Virus record (IMG/VR): IMGVR_UViG_3300047678_000169
Location: 1-64,000 of that record
Strand: one strand, 5' to 3'
From: a virus
DNA length: 64,000 nt
Part shown: in pieces, positions 2,237-62,082 of the stretch
Layout: each line of letters starts with the position of its first letter
Numbering within the stretch: position 1 is the first letter of the stretch
The notes under the pieces: model-generated
What the model saw: the letters and a program-made list of their open reading frames with translations, nothing else
Databases searched by the model: none
Told to the model about the DNA's origin: nothing
Translations under genes and position numbers: made by a program

Positions 2237-2292
2237 AACTTGTTATGATGACTTCACTGGTCAAAAAGTCAAACCATTTCTCAACACTTATT

Positions 2293-3656: not shown

Positions 3657-3664
3657 TATAAATA
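3657..3664 (-). promoter_or_regulatory. TA(T/C)TTATA start-proximal motif, propeller gene
   Basis: On the minus strand the sequence reads TATATTTATAGGGGAATG, placing the octamer 5 bases before the ATG. It is one of about fifteen such occurrences in this window. Function as a phage-specific promoter element is inferred from recurrence only. Confidence 0.4.
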
Positions 3665-4701: not shown

Positions 4702-5036
4702 GTGTAAGATACTCCAATATCATCTAAAGCTAAATCTTGTCCTGAGCCAGATAGAAAATTATTTCTAAGGTCTTGAGCTAATTCAAACTCGCCTACATTA
4801 TTCAAACAGATAAACGAATTGACCATTGCCTCTTTTTTTGATTTATCCTTTTTAACAATTAATAGGGGCCCTAAATTCAATTTATCTTCTGACTTCAATC
4901 GAGCTTCCAATGCTTGAGAAGCAGCTTCAATCAGTTGGTCGCGGTCTGTTTCAAAAATACTGCCGTCAATAGAAACTTCGAGTTTCCAATCAACGCCTTC
5001 AACGTGATATAATGTAGTTGTGTCTGCCATGTTCAT
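4698..5036 (-). CDS. Hypothetical protein
   Basis: 112 residues from ATG 5036; a second ATG two codons in is also possible. Begins with TTLYHVEGVDWKLEVSIDG, a beta hairpin-like stretch, then an amphipathic helix (DQLIEAASQALEARLKS). No recognised domain. The start follows a TACTTATA octamer immediately and a TTGACT/TATTGT box pair about 20 bases upstream, so it probably heads the run 5036 to 3681. Confidence 0.65.
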   Translation of the reverse strand: MNMADTTTLYHVEGVDWKLEVSIDGSIFETDRDQLIEAASQALEARLKSEDKLNLGPLLIVKKDKSKKEAMVNSFICLNNVGEFELAQDLRNNFLSGSGQDLALDDIGVSYT

Positions 5037-5056
5037 ATAAGTATTTTACTGATAAG

Positions 5057-7231: not shown

Positions 7232-7260
7232 GTTATGATAAGTATATATGAAACAAAGAA

Positions 7261-11667: not shown

Positions 11668-11675
11668 TATAAATA
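11668..11675 (-). promoter_or_regulatory. TA(T/C)TTATA motif before the 11440-11664 gene
   Basis: Minus strand ATATTTATAGCAATG: octamer ends 3 bases before the start codon. Recurrent motif in the window; function inferred. Confidence 0.4.
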
Positions 11676-12133: not shown

Positions 12134-12141
12134 TATAAATA
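12134..12141 (-). promoter_or_regulatory. TA(T/C)TTATA motif before the zincin gene
   Basis: Minus strand TATATTTATAGGCAAGAAG lies 15 bases before ATG 12119 in the divergent intergenic region. Its position decides the zincin start in favour of 12119. Because the region is divergent, use by the plus-strand gene cannot be excluded. Confidence 0.4.
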
Positions 12142-12183: not shown

Positions 12184-13191
12184 ATGGAAAAATACTACTC
12201 TTATCAAGAAGTCTTTCTTGAACCAAAGTTTTCAGAATATCGTTCACGCAGTGAAGTTGACACTTCAGTAAAAATAGGAGGGAAGGTATTTAAGCTGCCG
12301 ATTATTCCAGCCAACATGAAATGTGTCATGGACGTTGATAGGGCAAGATGGATGAGTGAAAATGATTATTTCTACATCATGCATCGATTTGGTAAGAAAA
12401 ATTCTTTGACCCACGAACAGGTAGATTTGGATAACAAAGAATTCGTTGCCATAGCTAATTTAGAAAAATGGAAAACTATTAGCATCAGTTTGGGAGTTAT
12501 TGAAAGAGACAGAGATTTTCTAAATTTCTGTGCAGCGAGGGAATTAAGAATTGATTTCATAACTCTGGACATCGCTCATGGTCATTCAGTTGCTATGAGA
12601 GATATGTTGAAATTCGTTCGTAGTCACAGATACTATAAGAATGTTGTGGTGATAGCCGGAAACATTGCTTCTGCTCAAGCGGCCAAGGATTTGGCTAGTT
12701 GGGGTGCTAGTATCATTAAGGTTGGTATTGCTCAAGGTGGAGCGTGCACGACATTTGGAAAAACTGGCTTCGGTTCGCCGATGTTTAGCATTGTAAAAAA
12801 ATGTGCCAGCGCTTCGTGGATTCCAATCATTGCAGATGGTGGAATCAGAACCAATGGAGATATAGCTAAAGCTTTGTCGGCGGGAGCTCAGTTAGTTATG
12901 GCTGGAGGATTGTTCGCCGCTACAAAGGATAGTCCGGCCGTCACCGTTTATAAACCATATGACGGTATTGGAAGACACGAATCCATTGCAACTCATAAAA
13001 TTTATTACGGTTCTGCGTCTGAGGATAACACTCACAGCACCCACCACATCGAAGGAACTAGAATCAATCTTCCTATTGATAGATGGACTTATGCTGAAAA
13101 ATTGATTGAAATCCAAGAAGACCTACAGAGTTCGATTTCGTATGCAGGCGGAGATTTAACCACGGCTGTTTGGGGAGTCAGAACAGCTTAA
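12184..13191 (+). CDS. GMP reductase / IMP dehydrogenase family enzyme
   Basis: 335 residues, TIM-barrel without the CBS domains found in most IMP dehydrogenases, so closer in size to GMP reductase (about 347). The catalytic loop reads KVGIAQGGACTTFGKTGFG with Cys at 188; DGGIRTNGDIAKALSAGA (about 220-237) is the phosphate-binding site, and YYGSASE near 279 matches the C-terminal GMP-binding segment. Reaction by family: NADPH-dependent GMP to IMP (GuaC) or the reverse-direction IMP oxidation. It would adjust purine pools during infection. The only isolated plus-strand gene in the first 43 kb; its 3' end overlaps the convergent FecR-like gene by 14 bases. Confidence 0.85.
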   Translation: MEKYYSYQEVFLEPKFSEYRSRSEVDTSVKIGGKVFKLPIIPANMKCVMDVDRARWMSENDYFYIMHRFGKKNSLTHEQVDLDNKEFVAIANLEKWKTISISLGVIERDRDFLNFCAARELRIDFITLDIAHGHSVAMRDMLKFVRSHRYYKNVVVIAGNIASAQAAKDLASWGASIIKVGIAQGGACTTFGKTGFGSPMFSIVKKCASASWIPIIADGGIRTNGDIAKALSAGAQLVMAGGLFAATKDSPAVTVYKPYDGIGRHESIATHKIYYGSASEDNTHSTHHIEGTRINLPIDRWTYAEKLIEIQEDLQSSISYAGGDLTTAVWGVRTA

Positions 13192-13825
13192 CGGAATATT
13201 TTCCGTCATTGAGCGACCAAACGATAGACTGCTTTGGTTCTAAACTCTTTACTTCTTCCCATTTAGCCAAATCTCCAGCCACAATTGGATATTTTCTAAT
13301 GACAATATTCTTGTCCCCATCGGCGCCGGTGACAATAGCTTCTTCGCCGGCCTCAACTACTGTGATTTTGAAGTTTAAGGAATTGGTTAGATTTAACTTT
13401 CCTTCGTAACACTTGATATAAGTAGAAGAGGTTCCGGTTTCGACTGAAAAAGCTGTGGAATGGACTTCTATTTCGGCCGCCGATGTTTTTATTAGAAACA
13501 CTGACATGTCATTTGGAAGAGACTTGAGCTTAAAATATCCAATTCCATCGAACAGTTCCATGTTCATATATGAAACATCAGAATTTTCTTGGTGCTCCAA
13601 AGCCTTTTTCTCAAAGTGTAATTCCGCCAGTTTAGTCAACCAAACTTCACTGTCATTTGAGAATAATACCCTAGCGTAGTCTGAGGAGGGTGATTGTAGG
13701 GTTATTGCTTTCTCAAACGTGGTCGTTTGGCCATCGTGATAGAATGACCCTACCAAAAATTTTGGTTTAGCCTGACCCAACAAAGCGGTCAGTAAGAAGA
13801 GACATAAAAATAACGTTTTTCTCAT
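13178..13825 (-). CDS. Exported FecR-like domain protein
   Basis: 215 residues. Signal peptide MRKTLFLCLFLLTALLGQAK with likely cleavage after GQA (residue 19). Middle region FLIKTSAAEIEVHSTAFSVE, followed by TYIKCYEGKLNLTN and VVEAGEEAIVT, matches the FecR domain (xVxTPxxxIxVxGTxFxV ... VxxGxVxV ... AGE). In bacteria FecR domains sense or assemble envelope components and are common in PVC-group genomes. A phage copy may act in the periplasm on the host envelope (inference). Convergent with the GMP-reductase-like gene. Preceded by a TATTTATT octamer. Confidence 0.7.
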   Translation of the reverse strand: MRKTLFLCLFLLTALLGQAKPKFLVGSFYHDGQTTTFEKAITLQSPSSDYARVLFSNDSEVWLTKLAELHFEKKALEHQENSDVSYMNMELFDGIGYFKLKSLPNDMSVFLIKTSAAEIEVHSTAFSVETGTSSTYIKCYEGKLNLTNSLNFKITVVEAGEEAIVTGADGDKNIVIRKYPIVAGDLAKWEEVKSLEPKQSIVWSLNDGKYSVKLF

Positions 13826-13859
13826 ATCAATAAATAGAGAAAAACGGTTATATTAAGTA

Positions 13860-14039: not shown

Positions 14040-14056
14040 ACAGAAATAAATAGTGA

Positions 14057-19605: not shown

Positions 19606-20061
19606 TCATTTCAGTTGTTTAAGCCACTTGTTAAAATTCAAATCCCATTCACCGAGAGGTATTCTGGTTTCTGGTCTGTTTTGATATTCTTTCAGTTTTA
19701 TTTTTACTTCCGGTCTATTTGCTGGATTATTTTTGCCTGTCAATCCGTAAAAATGATTGTTGGTGCCCATCTTTGAAATAGATACTTTCTTTCTCATTTC
19801 CTCCGACACATTTCTTATTCTACAACAACAAGAATTACAGTTTTTTCCTTTAAGTGTTTTATATTGAGAAAGAAAGCATAATTTAATTTTTCCGCACGTT
19901 GGGCATCTTTTTACCCACTTTCTTATTTTTCCAATATCTATCCATTCGTTCCCCGTTGAGTCTATTTTTGTGTTTAGAATGATATCTCCTAGCTCTAGCA
20001 CGTTGGAGTTCAAGCAATTCTTCTTTAGTTCTATGTAATTTTCTTCTTCCCATACGTTCAT
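19606..20061 (-). CDS. Zinc-ribbon/NUMOD3-like homing-endonuclease relative (likely remnant)
   Basis: Open frame of 151 codons. CPTCGKIKLC at about 53-62 and CNSCCC near 75-80 form a zinc ribbon; MGTNNHFYGLTGKNNPANRP (about 98-117) is NUMOD3-like. No catalytic nuclease domain is seen. The first 55 codons overlap, in another frame, the better-supported small gene 19883-20053, whose start has the better ribosome site. The expressed part may therefore begin near the zinc ribbon, or the locus may be a frame-shifted and partly decayed homing gene. Confidence 0.5.
   Translation of the reverse strand: MNVWEEENYIELKKNCLNSNVLELGDIILNTKIDSTGNEWIDIGKIRKWVKRCPTCGKIKLCFLSQYKTLKGKNCNSCCCRIRNVSEEMRKKVSISKMGTNNHFYGLTGKNNPANRPEVKIKLKEYQNRPETRIPLGEWDLNFNKWLKQLK
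19883..20053 (-). CDS. MGRK-family small basic protein overlapping a homing-endonuclease frame
   Basis: 56 residues: MGRRKLHRTKEELLELQRAR at the start, ending PNVRKN. Highly basic helix with RYW near residue 39-41. AGGAA lies 9 bases before ATG 20053, better placed than for the out-of-frame ATG at 20061. Similar ORFs beginning MGRK, with a Lys-Glu-rich helix and a YY/RYW spot, occur at 26596-26733 and 46351-46503, each overlapping or adjoining a nuclease-like frame. Not a known characterised family to me; DNA binding is a guess from charge. Confidence 0.5.
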   Translation of the reverse strand: MGRRKLHRTKEELLELQRARARRYHSKHKNRLNGERMDRYWKNKKVGKKMPNVRKN

Positions 20062-20065
20062 TTCC

Positions 20066-20073
20066 TATAAATA
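20066..20073 (-). promoter_or_regulatory. TA(T/C)TTATA motif before the MGRK gene
   Basis: Minus strand ATATATTTATAGGAAATG; octamer 4 bases before ATG 20061 and 12 before ATG 20053. Function inferred from recurrence. Confidence 0.4.
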
Positions 20074-23285: not shown

Positions 23286-23313
23286 AGACTACACAGCTCA
23301 TCACCAAAGTCAA
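23286..23313 (-). promoter_or_regulatory. Sigma70-like promoter for the PIF1-like helicase
   Basis: Minus strand TTGACT (23313-23308), 16-base spacer, TAGTCT (23291-23286), 6 bases to ATG 23279. The -10 is moderate. Same spacing as the boxes before the 51374 and 63099 genes. Confidence 0.5.
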
Positions 23314-26745: not shown

Positions 26746-26753
26746 TATAAGTA
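26746..26753 (-). promoter_or_regulatory. TA(T/C)TTATA motif before the MGRK/GIY-YIG locus
   Basis: Minus strand TATACTTATAGAGGACG; the octamer is followed by GAGGA and the ATG at 26733. Function inferred from recurrence. Confidence 0.4.
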
Positions 26754-35523: not shown

Positions 35524-37140
35524 TTACATTCCTTCTTGTGGAATCTGCTGTTGAATTTGCTCGGCCTCATCTTCAATGTCAGCAATCATACATTCGGTGG
35601 TCAATAATAGACCAGCGATGGATGCAGCGTTTTGAAGAGCGGTGCGCGTGACCTTTGTTGGGTCAACAACTCCGGAAACAACCAAGTCTTGATAAACATC
35701 GGTTGCGACATTGTAACCGTAATTTCCCGTGTTCTTCAACACTTCACTTACTACAACGTCTCCACTCTTTCCTGCATTTGAACACAGCATCTTGATTGGG
35801 TGTTCGATGGCTCTACGAACAATTTGAGCTCCAATTTGTTCATCGCCTTCTAACTTGAGAGCGTCAATAACCGAAGCACATCTCAATAGAGCAACTCCTC
35901 CACCCGGAACAATTCCCTCTTCAACTGCGGCACGTGTTGCGTGCAAGGCATCTTCAACACGGTCTTTCTTTTCTTTCATTTCGGATTCGGTGGCTGCGCC
36001 CGTGTGGACAACTGCAACTCCGCCAGTTAGTTTGGCAAGGCGTTCTTGAAGCTTCTCACGCTCGAAGTCAGAAGTCGATTTCTCAATTTCATTCTTAATG
36101 AGCTTAATACGAACTTCAATGGCAGCTGGTTTGCCCGTTCCGCCGATGATGGTGGTGCTATCCTTTGTTACAATAATCTTCTTAGCCTGACCCAAATCAG
36201 CAAAGGTTAATTTGTCAAGATTGAGCCCAAGCTCAGAGGTAATCAATTTTGCTCCAGTGATGGTCGCAATGTCCTCGAGGGTAGCACGGCGTCTATCACC
36301 AAATCCAGGTGCCTTAACAGCACATGAAACGAAAGCTCCACGAACTCTGTTTACAACCATAAAGGCGAGAGCATCACCCTCAACATCTTCAGCTATAACA
36401 AGGAGCTTCTTTCCCATCTTAGCAATTTCTGTAAAGAATTTGGCCAATGGGGCTATGGTGGTGAGCTTCTTTTCGATAACCAGAACCAAAGCGTCATCAA
36501 GAACAGCTTGTTGGGTTTCTTGGTCTGCAAAATAAGCGGAAATGAATCCCTTATCGAACTGCATACCCTCAACGACCTCAAGAGTCGTATCCATTGAGCT
36601 AGCTTCTTCAACGGTGATTGTTCCATCCTTACCAACCTTATCCATGGCGTCGGCAATAATGTTACCAATTGAGGTATCCCAGTTGGCGGAGACGGTGGCG
36701 ACCTGGCGAATCTCTTCGCTGCTGCTTACCTTTTTAGAGATTTTGGCTAATTCTGCTACAGCAGCTACTACAGCCTTGTCGATACCACGCTTCAAATACA
36801 CCGGATTTGCGCCAGCGGCTACGGTCTTTAGACCTTCACGATAGATTGCGGATGCAAGAACCGTTGCGGTGGTTGTTCCGTCTCCGGCCAAATCGTTGGT
36901 CTTGGAAGCAACTTCTTTTACCATTTGAGCACCCATGTTCTCAAACTTATCTTTGAGTTGAATAGACTTAGCAACCGTAACTCCGTCTTTGGTAATCAAT
37001 GGAGAACCAAATCCACGTTCGATGGCGACATTGCGACCCTTGGGCCCCAATGTTACACTGACCGCATTTGATAGGGTTGTTACTCCAGCCAAGATTTTAT
37101 TTCTGGCCTCTGCACTAAATAGGATTTCTTTTGATTTCAT
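35524..37140 (-). CDS. groEL: Chaperonin GroEL (60 kDa)
   Basis: 538 residues, near the bacterial ~548. Catalytic and ATP-site residues fall at E. coli numbers: KDGVTVAK with D52, GDGTT with D87 at 86-90, and [16 protein letters not shown] with the D398 equivalent. [20 protein letters not shown] and TTECMIAD are the conserved C-terminal equatorial segment. The C-terminus ends IPQEGM and lacks the GGM tail repeats. It should form the ATP-driven folding chamber with GroES, probably for virion proteins. Immediately follows groES (2 bases). Its similarity to bacterial GroEL suggests acquisition from a host. Confidence 0.95.
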
Positions 37141-37142
37141 AA

Positions 37143-37436
37143 TTATTTCTCGACTCCGAGGATTTCTTCGATGTGTAGAAGATAGTGTTTGGCACCATCA
37201 ACCTTAAATTCATTTCTTAGGTTCTTAGGAACAATAGCGGTAGCCTCAGGAACAAGCTCTTCTGGAACTTGAACGTCCTTGGTTCCCTTACCGACAGCTA
37301 TTACAACGGCTCTATTGAGTCCATCAACTGCTGTAGGTGGTATGTAAAGTTCAAAATCACCTGATTTTGTGGTTTCTTCGGCCTCAACAAGTCTTACTAA
37401 GACCATGTTGCCAAGTGGAATTATTGTTTTGCTCAT
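37143..37436 (-). CDS. groES: Co-chaperonin GroES
   Basis: 97 residues. [20 protein letters not shown] is the canonical first strand; [20 protein letters not shown] and [11 protein letters not shown] follow, with the C-terminal [12 protein letters not shown]. The mobile loop region ([14 protein letters not shown]) is at 24-37, where GroES contacts GroEL apical domains through a hydrophobic tripeptide (YIP here). Ordered groES-groEL as in bacteria. ATG 37436 overlaps the upstream glycosyltransferase stop. Confidence 0.93.
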
Positions 37437-39649: not shown

Positions 39650-39657
39650 CATAAGTA
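39650..39657 (-). promoter_or_regulatory. TA(T/C)TTATA-type motif before the RHH-like gene
   Basis: Minus strand TATATACTTATGGGTATG: TACTTATG variant 3 bases before the ATG. Function inferred. Confidence 0.35.
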
Positions 39658-42398: not shown

Positions 42399-42422
42399 TT
42401 AAATAAATATAGAACAACTCTC

Positions 42423-46503: not shown

Positions 46504-46561
46504 ATGAATAAATATAAACTATAAACGAAAAGCGACGATTTATTACTTATTATATAATATT

Positions 46562-49228: not shown

Positions 49229-49256
49229 ACATTAGGTTGTTTTTATAAAAAGTCAA
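49229..49256 (-). promoter_or_regulatory. Sigma70-like promoter for the HNH gene
   Basis: Minus strand TTGACT (49256-49251), 16-base spacer, TAATGT (49234-49229), 7 bases to ATG 49221. Follows the non-coding gap 49257-49360 in which I see no gene, only AT-rich sequence. Confidence 0.55.
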
Positions 49257-51380: not shown

Positions 51381-51408
51381 ATATTATAGTAACAATCATT
51401 CGTGTCAA
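51381..51408 (-). promoter_or_regulatory. Sigma70-like promoter for the UvsE-type gene
   Basis: Minus strand TTGACA (51408-51403), 16-base spacer, TAATAT (51386-51381); a TATAAT two bases earlier is an alternative -10. ATG follows 6-8 bases later. Confidence 0.6.
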
Positions 51409-52457
51409 CGCATTTTTCTTCTTATAAAAACAAACCCAATGGACACGGCTATAAAAATAGCTCCATAGGTTGAAGGTTCTGGCACCGGACGAGAAACTTG
51501 TGCTCCAAATCCCATAAAATCCATGTTTCCATACCCAGCAGAATCGGTATTTGTTGGATAGTAGGTGGCATTGTTCCAATTGACCAATTGTGTTCCCGTT
51601 GTAGCAGTAACATCACCAGCCATCAGTGAATATCCGTAAATAGTTTGTCCAGGACTCAATCCTAAATCTGCCATACGAATCAAAATACCCACAAGATATA
51701 AATCGTTTGCTCCCAAGGTTCCTGAATTCGTATCCACTGTTGCTACTGTTTGATTTGTATTGTTTGTGGGGCTTGTGTAAAGATTGTCTCCAAACGTTGT
51801 GGTTGAACGAAGATATGTTCCATTGGTTCCGTCAGGCGTTCCCACAGGCCCACCAAATGAATCGGATGCAACTAACAATCCACTGTTGGCATATGCAGTT
51901 GGTGTTCCTGCTCCATCAACTGATGTATAAGCTGCGATGCGGAAGCCGTCGCCGAAGTTATTTTGGTTTTCCAAATCAAAAAATACCAATGCATCGTTGG
52001 CTTGAACAGTATATCCCCCACTAAAATAAAAATCCATTCTTTCAATGTTGGTGTTCTGTGCGCTGGTTCCGTTTGCAAATGGATTTCTGATTCCTTGGCT
52101 TAAATCACCACTCAACATAACTTCTGAAAGAGTTGGAGTTGTATCTCCAGCTCCTATAACTTGATTGGGGGAACCGAGAGAGTTGTATTGATAAAATACC
52201 GTAGAGTTATTTGGGCTTGTTGTTCCCGTGTTTCTTCTGAAAAATACATTGTCGGCGACCGGACCAGTAAATTGATAATCTCCTAGTGTCGTATTGATTG
52301 TCGATACTACTGAAGTCTGATTCAAGTATCTAATTTCATCGACGTTTCTGTTGGCTCCATTTGATGAAACGCCATACGTCACACTGTTGACTGCCACTTG
52401 TCCGAAGCAAGATGACACCAATAATAGGAGAAAAATGAGTTTTTTGTAGGGGTTCAT
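51405..52457 (-). CDS. Secreted protein with PEP-CTERM sorting signal
   Basis: 350 residues. Signal peptide MNPYKKLIFLLLLVSSCFGQ, mature beta-rich domain, and a C-terminal VPEPSTYGAIFIAVSIGF then FIRRK: PEP motif, membrane helix, basic tail, the three parts of PEP-CTERM. In bacteria, exosortase cuts such tails so that the protein is exported and linked to extracellular polysaccharide. A phage copy would rely on the host's exosortase, since none is seen here. TACTTATA motif precedes ATG 52457 by 3 bases. Mature function unknown; a surface protein altering the host exterior is the simplest reading. Confidence 0.85.
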   Translation of the reverse strand: MNPYKKLIFLLLLVSSCFGQVAVNSVTYGVSSNGANRNVDEIRYLNQTSVVSTINTTLGDYQFTGPVADNVFFRRNTGTTSPNNSTVFYQYNSLGSPNQVIGAGDTTPTLSEVMLSGDLSQGIRNPFANGTSAQNTNIERMDFYFSGGYTVQANDALVFFDLENQNNFGDGFRIAAYTSVDGAGTPTAYANSGLLVASDSFGGPVGTPDGTNGTYLRSTTTFGDNLYTSPTNNTNQTVATVDTNSGTLGANDLYLVGILIRMADLGLSPGQTIYGYSLMAGDVTATTGTQLVNWNNATYYPTNTDSAGYGNMDFMGFGAQVSRPVPEPSTYGAIFIAVSIGFVFIRRKMR

Positions 52458-52460
52458 ACC

Positions 52461-52468
52461 TATAAGTA
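52461..52468 (-). promoter_or_regulatory. TA(T/C)TTATA motif before the PEP-CTERM gene
   Basis: Minus strand ATACTTATAGGTATG: octamer 3 bases before ATG 52457. Function inferred. Confidence 0.4.
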
Positions 52469-53960: not shown

Positions 53961-54365
53961 TGGTGGACCTGCGGGGAGTTGAACCCCGGTGTTTCATAAA
54001 TTGCTCATCAGACATATACAAGCGTTAACACGGTGGATATGATTGTGGTTAGTAGTGTGCTCCACAAAAATTAGAGTCAGTAGTTTCTTCGTTGTTACAG
54101 TCTCACTTTCTCACAACGAACATATCAGCAGAGGTTGACGTATTGACCCACTTATCTGCGTGGTGGAATACGGACTGCTCAGTTTATTAAGCAGCGACAG
54201 CCATAGCGGCTCCAACGTTCTTCGCCTTGCGGAGAAGTGTTAGAACATTTAGCTTAGCAAGATTTCTCTTAGCATTTAGTTTTTGTAATCAGGATTATGC
54301 AGGATGTTTACCACCTGCGCTTGCGTTCCGAGCTCAACCCATAAAGTCGAATCCTGGACAGGCCC
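53961..54365 (-). ncRNA. ssrA: tmRNA (transfer-messenger RNA)
   Basis: 405 bases. The 5' end GGGCCTG pairs with 3' CAGGTCC in a 7-bp acceptor stem, with G3-U70, the alanine identity pair, then A and CCA. The T-arm is CGGGG/CCCCG around the loop TTCAACT. Near the 5' end, TCCAGGATTCGAC is the conserved tmRNA D-region. The tag frame reads from GCT at 54273, preceded by AAACTAAAT, through to GCT GCT TAA TAA at 54184-54195: AKRNLAKLNV... to ...GAAMAVAA, up to 28 residues, longer than usual (8-15). A resume codon at the GCT five codons in would give 23. It rescues stalled ribosomes by trans-translation with SmpB, which is not seen here. Confidence 0.93.
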
Positions 54366-54578: not shown

Positions 54579-54610
54579 TATAAATATAGTCCGTTTTATT
54601 GATAAGTCAA
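54579..54610 (-). promoter_or_regulatory. Sigma70-like promoter with TATTTATA motif upstream of tmRNA
   Basis: Minus strand TTGACT (54610-54605), 16-base spacer, TATATT (54588-54583), which merges with the TATTTATA octamer (54586-54579). About 215 bases upstream of the tmRNA 5' end, so a precursor is made and trimmed, or the promoter serves the 54276-54518 frame. Confidence 0.55.
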
Positions 54611-57218: not shown

Positions 57219-60200
57219 AGCTTACTTATAAGTATTGAAACCGATGGTTTTGAGTGTGAAGTTGCAATAGAAGGTGGCGGTATAACCTGCATGGAACCAC
57301 TATTTCCAGCGAATTCAGCTCTGAGAGCGGAGCCTGATAGAACAGGAATTATCACCTTTGAAACTAATGGCTGAGGAACGTTGTTGGCCGTGAATGAGAA
57401 AGCAGAATAACTTCCTGATATTTCAAGATTATCAAGAACCAATCTTGTTGCTCCGACCAAAGTTCCGCTGCCTGTCTTTTGCATGTAGGTAGTTAAAGTA
57501 ACTTCATATAATCCACCCAAAGAACATGTGAATTGTCCAGATGATGTTGAATGTGTCCATGCCGGAGAAGGAGTTAAAATATTGCTGAAATTAATTTCGT
57601 TAAACGTATTGACAGACAGAACAGACTGTGAGCCAGTTCCAATTGCTGTGTAAAATCCGGATGCTGTTGCGTTTGCTGCCCATGAGGCTGTTCCAAACAA
57701 AGAACCTGTTATTTGTGAACTGTTGATGAATGAACTTGTAACTTGTGTGCTATTGAATGAGCCAGAGAGTGCAACGAGTCTACTTGAGAAAGAGGCTGAA
57801 GAATTTACAAAAGAACTTGATACAGTAAGTAAGCTTCCACTGTCAGCCAATTCCCTTGCTGTAAATGATGCAGAAGTGGCCTGGTAAGATGAGGATAACG
57901 CTAATAGACTTCCTGAGTCAGCCAATTCTTTTGCAGTGAAGGATGCGGATGTTGTCTGATAGGATGACGACAGTGCCAACAAACTTCCGCTATTTGTAAA
58001 TATCCTTGTGCTAAATGATGCAGAAGATGCAACAAAAGATGCCGATACTGACAGTAGACTTGAACTATTCGTAGTGACATTTGAAGTCAAATTACTTATA
58101 GTAGAAGTTAAAGATGAACTATAAGATAAAGCATTTGAAGAGAAAGATGCTGTTCCATCCAAGCTACCACTGAAGGAACTTGTAACGTCAGTTGGAGTTA
58201 TTCTACCCAAAGTAAGTGTTATCGATGGAGTAGTAGTTGCGTTTTGAACCGTTCCACTTACGCCGTTTGCCGTAGCAACGGACACCGATGTTACTGAGCC
58301 TGTTGCAGACGTTCCTGCTGTTGGTGCCCAAGACGCAGAAATTGCATTTACCGACCACGACGCAGTTCCAAATAAAGAACCGGTAATATTTCCTGAAAAT
58401 GATGATGTTACGTCCGTTGGAACTATTCTACCAAGGGTTACTGTTATAGCGGGCGTTGTTGTTGCATTTTGAACGGTTCCACTAACTCCGTTTGATGTAT
58501 TAACAGATACATTGGTTACTGAGCCGGTAGCCGATGTTCCCGATGTTGGTGCCCACGATGCCGAAATTGAATTTTGTGCCCAAGAGGATGTCCCGAATAC
58601 TGAACCAGTTATTTGAGTGATTAGAGCAGATGATGCTGTTATTGATGTTGATACAGACAGTGAACCACTCAAAATTGTTATGTAGGAACTACTGAATGTT
58701 GCGATTGCTGACAAAGTATTTTGTGCTGTTCCGGTTGGCCCAACAGGAGCAATTTTGATTATAACACTTCCTCCGCCACCAAGTCCAGTTCCTCTACTTC
58801 CAGCCAACACAAAGTCTCTTCCCTGCGTATCGGATGTTCCGGCAACAACGCTTTGCATAGACATTGTTTGCGGAACAGCGGCCGCTGCATCAGCATTTCC
58901 GAACTGTAGATTTCCCGCTCCTGGACTTGTGATTACAGTGTCGGCGCTTGCATTTGCGTCAGCCAATCCTGTAATAAATCCATATCCATAATTTCCTCTT
59001 TGAATTACAAAACCTTTGCTATTAGAAATTCCGATGACTCCATTACTTGCTCCAGCGGAACAACCAATTATCAATAATCCGTTTAAATCTTGTCCACCGA
59101 GATATATTACAGCGTTTCCTCCGGCACTCGTTCTTTCAACTCTAAATATTCCTGTCGGGTCCGCTTTTGATGAAATTGCAGCTTCTGCCGAATATGAAGA
59201 TGTTCCAAATACGCTTCCTGTTATTTGAGAGCCTGAAATTATTGAACCAGTAATTTGTGAACTATTAAACGAAGATGATAGTGCCACTAACCTACTTGAG
59301 AACGAAGCGCTCGATACAACTAAGGAAGATGATACCAATAATAAACTTCCTGAATCTGCTAATTCTTTTTCTGTGAAAGACGCGGAAGTTGTTTGGTAAG
59401 ACGAGGAAAGTGATAATAGAGAGGCAGAGGTCGTTAGTAAACTTCCACTGTCTGTAAAGATTCTTGTGCTGAATGAAGCAGATGAAGCGACATAAGATGA
59501 AGACAGTGCCAACAAACTTCCAGAATCAGCCAGTTCTTTAGCTGTGAATGATGCAGAAGATGCCAAATAAGAAGCCGAAAGAGCTAATAAACTACCACTA
59601 TCTTTAAACACCCTTGTGCTAAACGAAGCTGAAGAAACAACGTAAGATGAAGAAAGCGTCAACAAACTTCCAGAATCAGCCAACTCTTTTGAGGTAAATG
59701 AAGCAGATGTTGTTTGATACGAAGAAGACAGAGCCAACAAACTCGAACTATTCGTAGTAACGTTTGCGGTCAAACTACTGATGGTCGTTGTAAACGAAGC
59801 ACTGTTGGTTGTATCGCTAGTGCTAAATGATGAAGAATATGTTTGGGCGTTTTGAGAGAATGATGCGGTTCCAAACAACGAACCTGTAAATTGTGAGCCG
59901 GAAATTATTGAACCCGTAATTTGTCCGGTTGAAATTGATGTTGGAGTTATTGCTCCTAACGTTATAGAAATCGCCGGGGCCGTTGTCGAATTAGCAACAG
60001 TTCCACTTACTCCAGCGTTTGTGGTTACGCTTACGCTTGTTACAGAGCCTGTGGTTGTTGTTCCTGATGTAGGAGCCCACGATGCCGATACTGAATTTTG
60101 TGCCCATGACGCAGTTCCAAACAATGAACCGGTTATTTGTGGACTGTTAACAACAGAAGCGGTTATTTGAACTGTGGACAATGAGGTATTCAACGCTCCA

Positions 60201-62074: not shown

Positions 62075-62082
62075 TATAAATA
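62075..62082 (-). promoter_or_regulatory. TA(T/C)TTATA motif before the 61643-62068 gene
   Basis: Minus strand CTATATTTATAGTCAATATG; octamer 6 bases before ATG 62068. Function inferred. Confidence 0.4.

Follow-up and report, generated by a model that had tools for sequence, protein, structure and literature searches.

A recurrent octamer of the form TA(C/T)TTATA, found just before start codons in a stretch of phage DNA of 64,000 nucleotides (the window), is with a probability of about 0.7, as judged from sequence, the −10 element in late promoters of jumbo T4-type phages; it would be read by a gp55-like sigma factor, with RNA starting at or near the AUG and messages without a leader. A late class served by such a sigma factor is the best reading of the octamer. 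The most unusual feature, missed in the initial annotation, is a spacing that leaves no room for a 5′ leader: with the octamer only 3–6 bases ahead of the start codons of many genes, the start codon is probably where their messages begin.

The window comprises positions 1–64,000 of the IMG/VR phage record IMGVR_UViG_3300047678_000169 (80,238 bp), the genes of which lie mainly on the − strand. Genes were called by simple ORF rules and gaps were counted in nt from the octamer end to the start codon. The initial annotation had listed 14 starts preceded by the octamer, and TA(C/T)TTAT was located upstream of all 14 on the sense (−) strand, with a gap of 3–6 nt at ten and of 12–14 nt at three. The octamer sites and the tmRNA gene of the window are as follows.

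3657..3664 (−): octamer TATTTATA, gap 5 nt to ATG 3651 (452-aa protein)
5036..5043 (−): octamer TACTTATA, overlaps the listed ATG 5036; 5 nt before the in-frame ATG 5030
7237..7244 (−): octamer TACTTATC (TATACTTATC), gap 5 nt to ATG 7231
11668..11675 (−): octamer TATTTATA, gap 3 nt to ATG 11664
12134..12141 (−): octamer TATTTATA, gap 14 nt to ATG 12119 (weakly zincin-like protein)
13829..13836 (−): octamer TATTTATT, gap 3 nt to ATG 13825 (FecR-domain protein)
14045..14052 (−): octamer TATTTATT, gap 5 nt to ATG 14039
20066..20073 (−): octamer TATTTATA, gap 12 nt to ATG 20053 (56-aa basic MGRRK protein)
26746..26753 (−): octamer TACTTATA, gap 12 nt to ATG 26733 (45-aa MGRKK protein)
39650..39657 (−): octamer TACTTATG (TATACTTATG), gap 3 nt to ATG 39646
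42402..42409 (−): octamer TATTTATT, gap 3 nt to GTG 42398
46507..46514 (−): octamer TATTTATT, gap 3 nt to ATG 46503
52461..52468 (−): octamer TACTTATA, gap 3 nt to ATG 52457 (exported protein, PEP-CTERM-like tail)
53961..54365 (−): tmRNA gene
54579..54586 (−): octamer TATTTATA, about 214 nt upstream of the tmRNA 5′ end
57227..57234 (−): octamer TACTTATA, gap 8 nt to ATG 57218 (404-aa protein); absent from the earlier list
62075..62082 (−): octamer TATTTATA, gap 6 nt to ATG 62068

Two more sites in the 80-kb record precede starts 75822 (gap 4 nt) and 78365 (gap 3 nt). The ORFs at 20053, 26733 and 46503 (−) are three short basic paralogues (MGRRK/MGRKK/MGRKS...), each with the octamer ahead of it, as is also the case for the exported FecR-domain protein encoded at 13178–13825 (−).

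A motif search of the 80-kb record with TAYTTATW returned 21 occurrences on the sense strand and eight on the other strand; an ATG or GTG opening at least 35 codons followed within 16 nt at 16 of the former versus two of the latter. The recurrence before starts that the initial annotation had described was borne out by the positional statistics: the octamer occurs at −25..0 of 12 out of 100 genes, an approximately 15-fold enrichment over the 0.8 expected from order-2 Markov upstream regions (500 simulations, in which at most four genes carried it). It is not equally frequent inside genes, random sense positions giving an expectation of 0.4 and a maximum of 3. When 336 letter permutations of both octamers were ranked by the presence of an ORF within 6 nt after the word, the motif and its one-base and two-base shifts took ranks 1–5. 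The top-ranked words found de novo upstream of genes of the clade include TATTTAT, ATATTTA and ATACTTA; Shine–Dalgarno cores were not enriched there. The Bacteroidota −33/−7 promoter has the consensus TAnnTTTG, with TTTG closing the −7 box; words ending in TTTG, used as a test for this promoter, were not among the top enriched words of the clade.

The motif had been reported to carry the T4 late octamer in its reverse complement, opposite to the orientation used by T4. The reverse complement is indeed TATAAATA, but the sense TATTTATA may equally well be taken for the T4 octamer with its centre changed from AA to TT. Four features set the sense orientation: the TACTTATA variant, the TA extension on the 5′ side, an A/T block 15–18 bp upstream and the spacing to the ATG. 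TATAAATA showed no enrichment ahead of the window's genes (0 of 10 occurrences).

The window's record (G000) was compared with the relatives G001 (39 kb), G002 (62 kb) and G005 (297 kb; IMGVR_UViG_3300023184_000026). Octamer, gap and start methionine are kept at several orthologous genes, the proteins of which are mostly only ~35–70% identical. The motif or a near variant precedes the orthologue of start 3651 in G001 and G002; the octamer is conserved at start 7231 in the same two genomes and at starts 11664 and 39646 in G002. The G002 orthologue of start 5036 has TATACTTATT plus the start, that of start 13825 has TATACTTATT, 3 nt and GTG, and the G001 homologue of start 46503 has TATACTTATA upstream. 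At start 14039 the motif is also upstream in G002 and G005, and at start 20053 all four genomes have it, G002 and G005 with a gap of 3–4 nt. The orthologues of start 12119 carry the octamer closer to the start (~5–8 nt) in G001, G002 and G005. Some sites of G005 abut the start and others lie 12–26 nt upstream.

A consensus of TATA(C/T)TTATA was derived for the clade from 124 distinct start-abutting sites in G000, G001, G002, G005 and loci around the sigma gene; the loci of the sigma scan were partly redundant and were deduplicated by N-terminus, and G000–G002 are close relatives and hence not independent. The gap to the ATG or GTG is 3–5 nt at 91 of the 124 sites (3 nt, n = 39; 4 nt, n = 29; 5 nt, n = 23). 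A separate A/T block lies 15–18 bp upstream of the octamer, with 89–91% A/T at its two peak positions; where the heptamer occurs elsewhere (n = 612), the same positions are 64–66% A/T and the block is missing. The signal persists without T-runs. Together, octamer and A/T block probably form a bipartite promoter with the transcript starting at the AUG. An intrinsic-terminator-like hairpin stands directly ahead of the octamer at 13 of 110 sites, so that a longer leader is hardly possible for those messages. A pyrimidine at −1, taken as a start-site signature, was not clearly more frequent at abutting sites than at others and was dropped as not discriminative.

A search for a gp55-like sigma gene was negative on the window's 80-kb record; in G005 it pointed to 229201–230085, which encodes a protein of 294 aa that matches PHROG 234 ('late sigma', E 6.7e-5); PHROG 12791 (late sigma) gave no match. 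Profile–profile alignment with T4 gp55 (hhalign) was weak (E 0.014, low probability). The predicted fold retrieves almost exclusively sigma factors, phage late sigmas included, and its core resembles gp55 in the T4 open complex (7d7c_F, probability 0.98, TM 0.52 by target), the Foldseek PDB matches having E-values above 0.001. Relatives of this sigma are encoded on 299 IMG/VR contig stretches and, at ~37% identity, in Flavobacterium phage immuto (gp118) and phage Mel-JY01. The hydrophobic/acidic sliding-clamp-binding tail that defines the gp55 C-terminus (PMC2988020) was not recognizable by inspection of a 21-sequence sigma alignment; a clamp loader and a T4-type DNA polymerase were detected. 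Reading of the A/T block by a region-4-like helix–turn–helix in the sigma C-terminal domain was suggested by sequence, but a fold search of that domain returned nothing significant. The RM378 sigma was discarded as gp55 kin because its sequence looks ECF-like. The octamer is most likely read by a gp55-like sigma, the gene of which we infer to lie in that part of the phage genome not yet sequenced.

A second promoter-like class is marked by a peak of TTGAC(A/T) 34–39 nt before ATG in G005, G001 and G002, weaker in the window's record and not seen in immuto, Mel-JY01 or T4. These sites have a −10-like YAWWNT ~16 nt further on. Examples in the window are the following.

2267..2272 (−): class B TTGACT site, 36 nt before ATG 2236
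23308..23313 (−): class B TTGACT site, 34 nt before ATG 23279 (Dda-like helicase)
49251..49256 (−): class B promoter-like site (TTGACT...TATAAAA), TTGAC 35 nt before ATG 49221
51403..51408 (−): class B TTGACA site, 34 nt before ATG 51374

A TATAAAA stretch, possibly an operator, recurs in the spacer of the TTGAC-type promoters of G005 (L034–L048), ~35 nt before ATG.

The two classes occupy different parts of G005, in which portal, sheath and major head protein are T4-type: the structural region, its limits drawn by eye from the gene list, holds 26 of 41 octamer sites, and 30 of 33 TTGAC sites fall outside it (Fisher p = 1e-6). The late class suspected in the initial annotation is seen in this relative, as a division into late and early promoters. 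That many of the genes behind the octamer are structural is not demonstrable within the window, since its 80-kb fragment had no recognizable gene for a major capsid protein, portal, sheath or terminase. Use of the octamer by the host's own sigma factor instead of a phage late sigma is unlikely: TATAYTTATA is −10-like and the TTGAC-type sites are likewise close to starts, but the octamer lacks a TTGAC −35, is segregated by region from the TTGAC class and is common to phage lineages that share the gp55-like sigma.

For the late promoter read by a gp55-like sigma, the predicted layout is A/T block, ~12–14 bp, TATAYTTATA, 3–5 nt, ATG. Host core RNA polymerase carrying the phage-encoded sigma would most likely recognize the octamer and start RNA on, or no more than about two bases away from, the A of the start codon; late mRNAs would be leaderless or nearly so, and the ribosome would take the 5′-terminal AUG without a Shine–Dalgarno sequence. 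We infer the exact transcription start from the geometry, following PMC3160421, by which a gene with a TA-like signal ~10 bp ahead of its start codon is most probably leaderless; here a −10-like signal lies ~10 bp before the start codon and the Shine–Dalgarno sequence is lacking, as in TA-led leaderless genes. According to PMC1524935 the T4 late octamer occupies −13..−6, and TATAYTTA set in this register places +1 on the A of the AUG at the modal site. If TAYTTATA is aligned instead, the T4 geometry puts +1 inside the start codon at 3-nt gaps, and these late promoters might then start within the annotated first codons, with a downstream codon used or a short leader; this is quite improbable, as the annotated start methionine and N-terminus align in several orthologue pairs and the TATAYTTA register removes the offset.

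The spacing was compared with that in known phages under the same gene calling. T4, with gp55 as its sigma (PMC1524935; PMC2988020), likewise has one strong −10 octamer before structural genes, and in the relatives its virion genes have T4-type counterparts and its sigma a putative gp55-like one. It differs in that TATAAATA lies 14–28 nt from the ATG, whereas the window's clade has TATTTATA/TACTTATA at 3–5 nt with the A/T block, and in that the clade sigma has no recognizable C-terminal clamp-binding tail. Phage immuto (NC_055915) has TATTTATA before structural genes and its related sigma gp118 (37% identity), but at mostly 10–25 nt from the ATG; its early-type promoters read TATATTTAGGTA. In immuto, for example at 67665–73856, TATATTTAGGTATCAATAATTAAAA occurs 20–40 nt before the ATG of many small genes and is a promoter class different from its late TATTTATA. 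In Mel-JY01 the octamer is mostly 31–43 nt from the ATG. A 344-kb relative with a distant sigma copy has CTATTTAT before 41 genes (0.2 expected), with the octamer mostly 12–36 nt from starts and with Shine–Dalgarno words present. The octamer thus follows the sigma lineage, while a spacing of 3–5 nt is peculiar to the window's clade and its nearer relatives, as the leaderless layout appears to be to the clade.

These distances bear on whether the octamer serves translation initiation, as an AU-rich element for ribosome binding or standby that has nothing to do with promoters. Its close and rather fixed distance to start codons and the lack of Shine–Dalgarno enrichment in these phages would fit such a role. 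It is nevertheless very unlikely: in more distant phages with the same sigma family the octamer is mostly 10–36 nt upstream, which marks a promoter and not ribosome binding; it has a spacing-constrained partner 15–18 bp upstream, can directly follow terminator hairpins and resembles the T4 late octamer. In two phages it also precedes the tmRNA by ~200 nt; the initial annotation had put it a few bases before that gene, which is corrected here to 214 nt from the tmRNA 5′ end (~205 nt in G002). Chance in an AT-rich genome (60% A+T, with TAYTTATW eight times on the non-coding strand) is refuted by the simulations, the permutations and the conservation in orthologues.

Precedents exist for parts of this arrangement. 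Aeromonas phage Aeh1 combines a changed octamer (CTAAATA), unlike that of the window, with a diverged gp55 (PMC1524935). Cellular leaderless genes (PMC3160421) present the same geometry and allow the same inference, but with a housekeeping-like −10 (TANNNT) instead of a phage late class. In cluster O mycobacteriophages (PMC4351075) transcripts were predicted to begin (+1) with the first base of the start codon; these are two predicted promoters in a host rich in leaderless messages, and not a genome-wide late class. A literature search for TATTTATA phage promoters or leaderless T4-like late genes found nothing relevant.

Several features bear on the host. The window encodes GroEL with a GroES-like gene (35524–37436, −), and the GroEL is closest to those of Verrucomicrobiota, mainly Opitutales (66–71%). 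The exported protein at 51405–52457 (−) ends in a PEP-CTERM-like sorting tail, VPEPSTYGAIFIAVSIGFVFIRRKMR (VPEPST...RRKMR), which is unexpected in a phage and scores below the Pfam cut-off; it suggests a host with an exosortase and would fit the GroEL kinship. The tmRNAs of the window (53961–54365, −), G002 (12490–12888) and G005 (107795–108185) have long predicted tags with the common N-terminus AKRNLAK; host assignment through the tag was abandoned, as it matches no Opitutaceae tags. An Opitutales genome (400 kb) examined for leaderless signals had no Shine–Dalgarno peak and only a faint TAnnnT rise at 8 nt. The named relatives of the phage come from Flavobacterium and from a Microcystis culture.

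The octamer of the window's clade is probably a T4-type late promoter in a new form, and would extend this promoter family to a large group of uncultured phages, represented by the 299 contig stretches with a relative of the sigma. Here a new octamer goes together with a sigma in which the clamp tail of gp55 is missing. The promoter positions suggest that a whole promoter class has moved beside the start codons, with leaderless translation as a main route for phage proteins. We tentatively raise the possibility that both TTGAC-type promoters (TTGAC ~35 nt before ATG) and the late TATAYTTATA promoters of a diverged gp55-like sigma abut start codons in this widespread lineage of giant freshwater T4-type phages; leaderless messages would then carry most of the lytic programme, and the phage would rely on initiation at 5′-terminal AUGs. 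If the late-promoter reading is right, the promoters and true start codons of these genomes would be predictable from sequence alone, and cultured relatives, Flavobacterium phage immuto among them, would allow the co-evolution of sigma and octamer to be tested.
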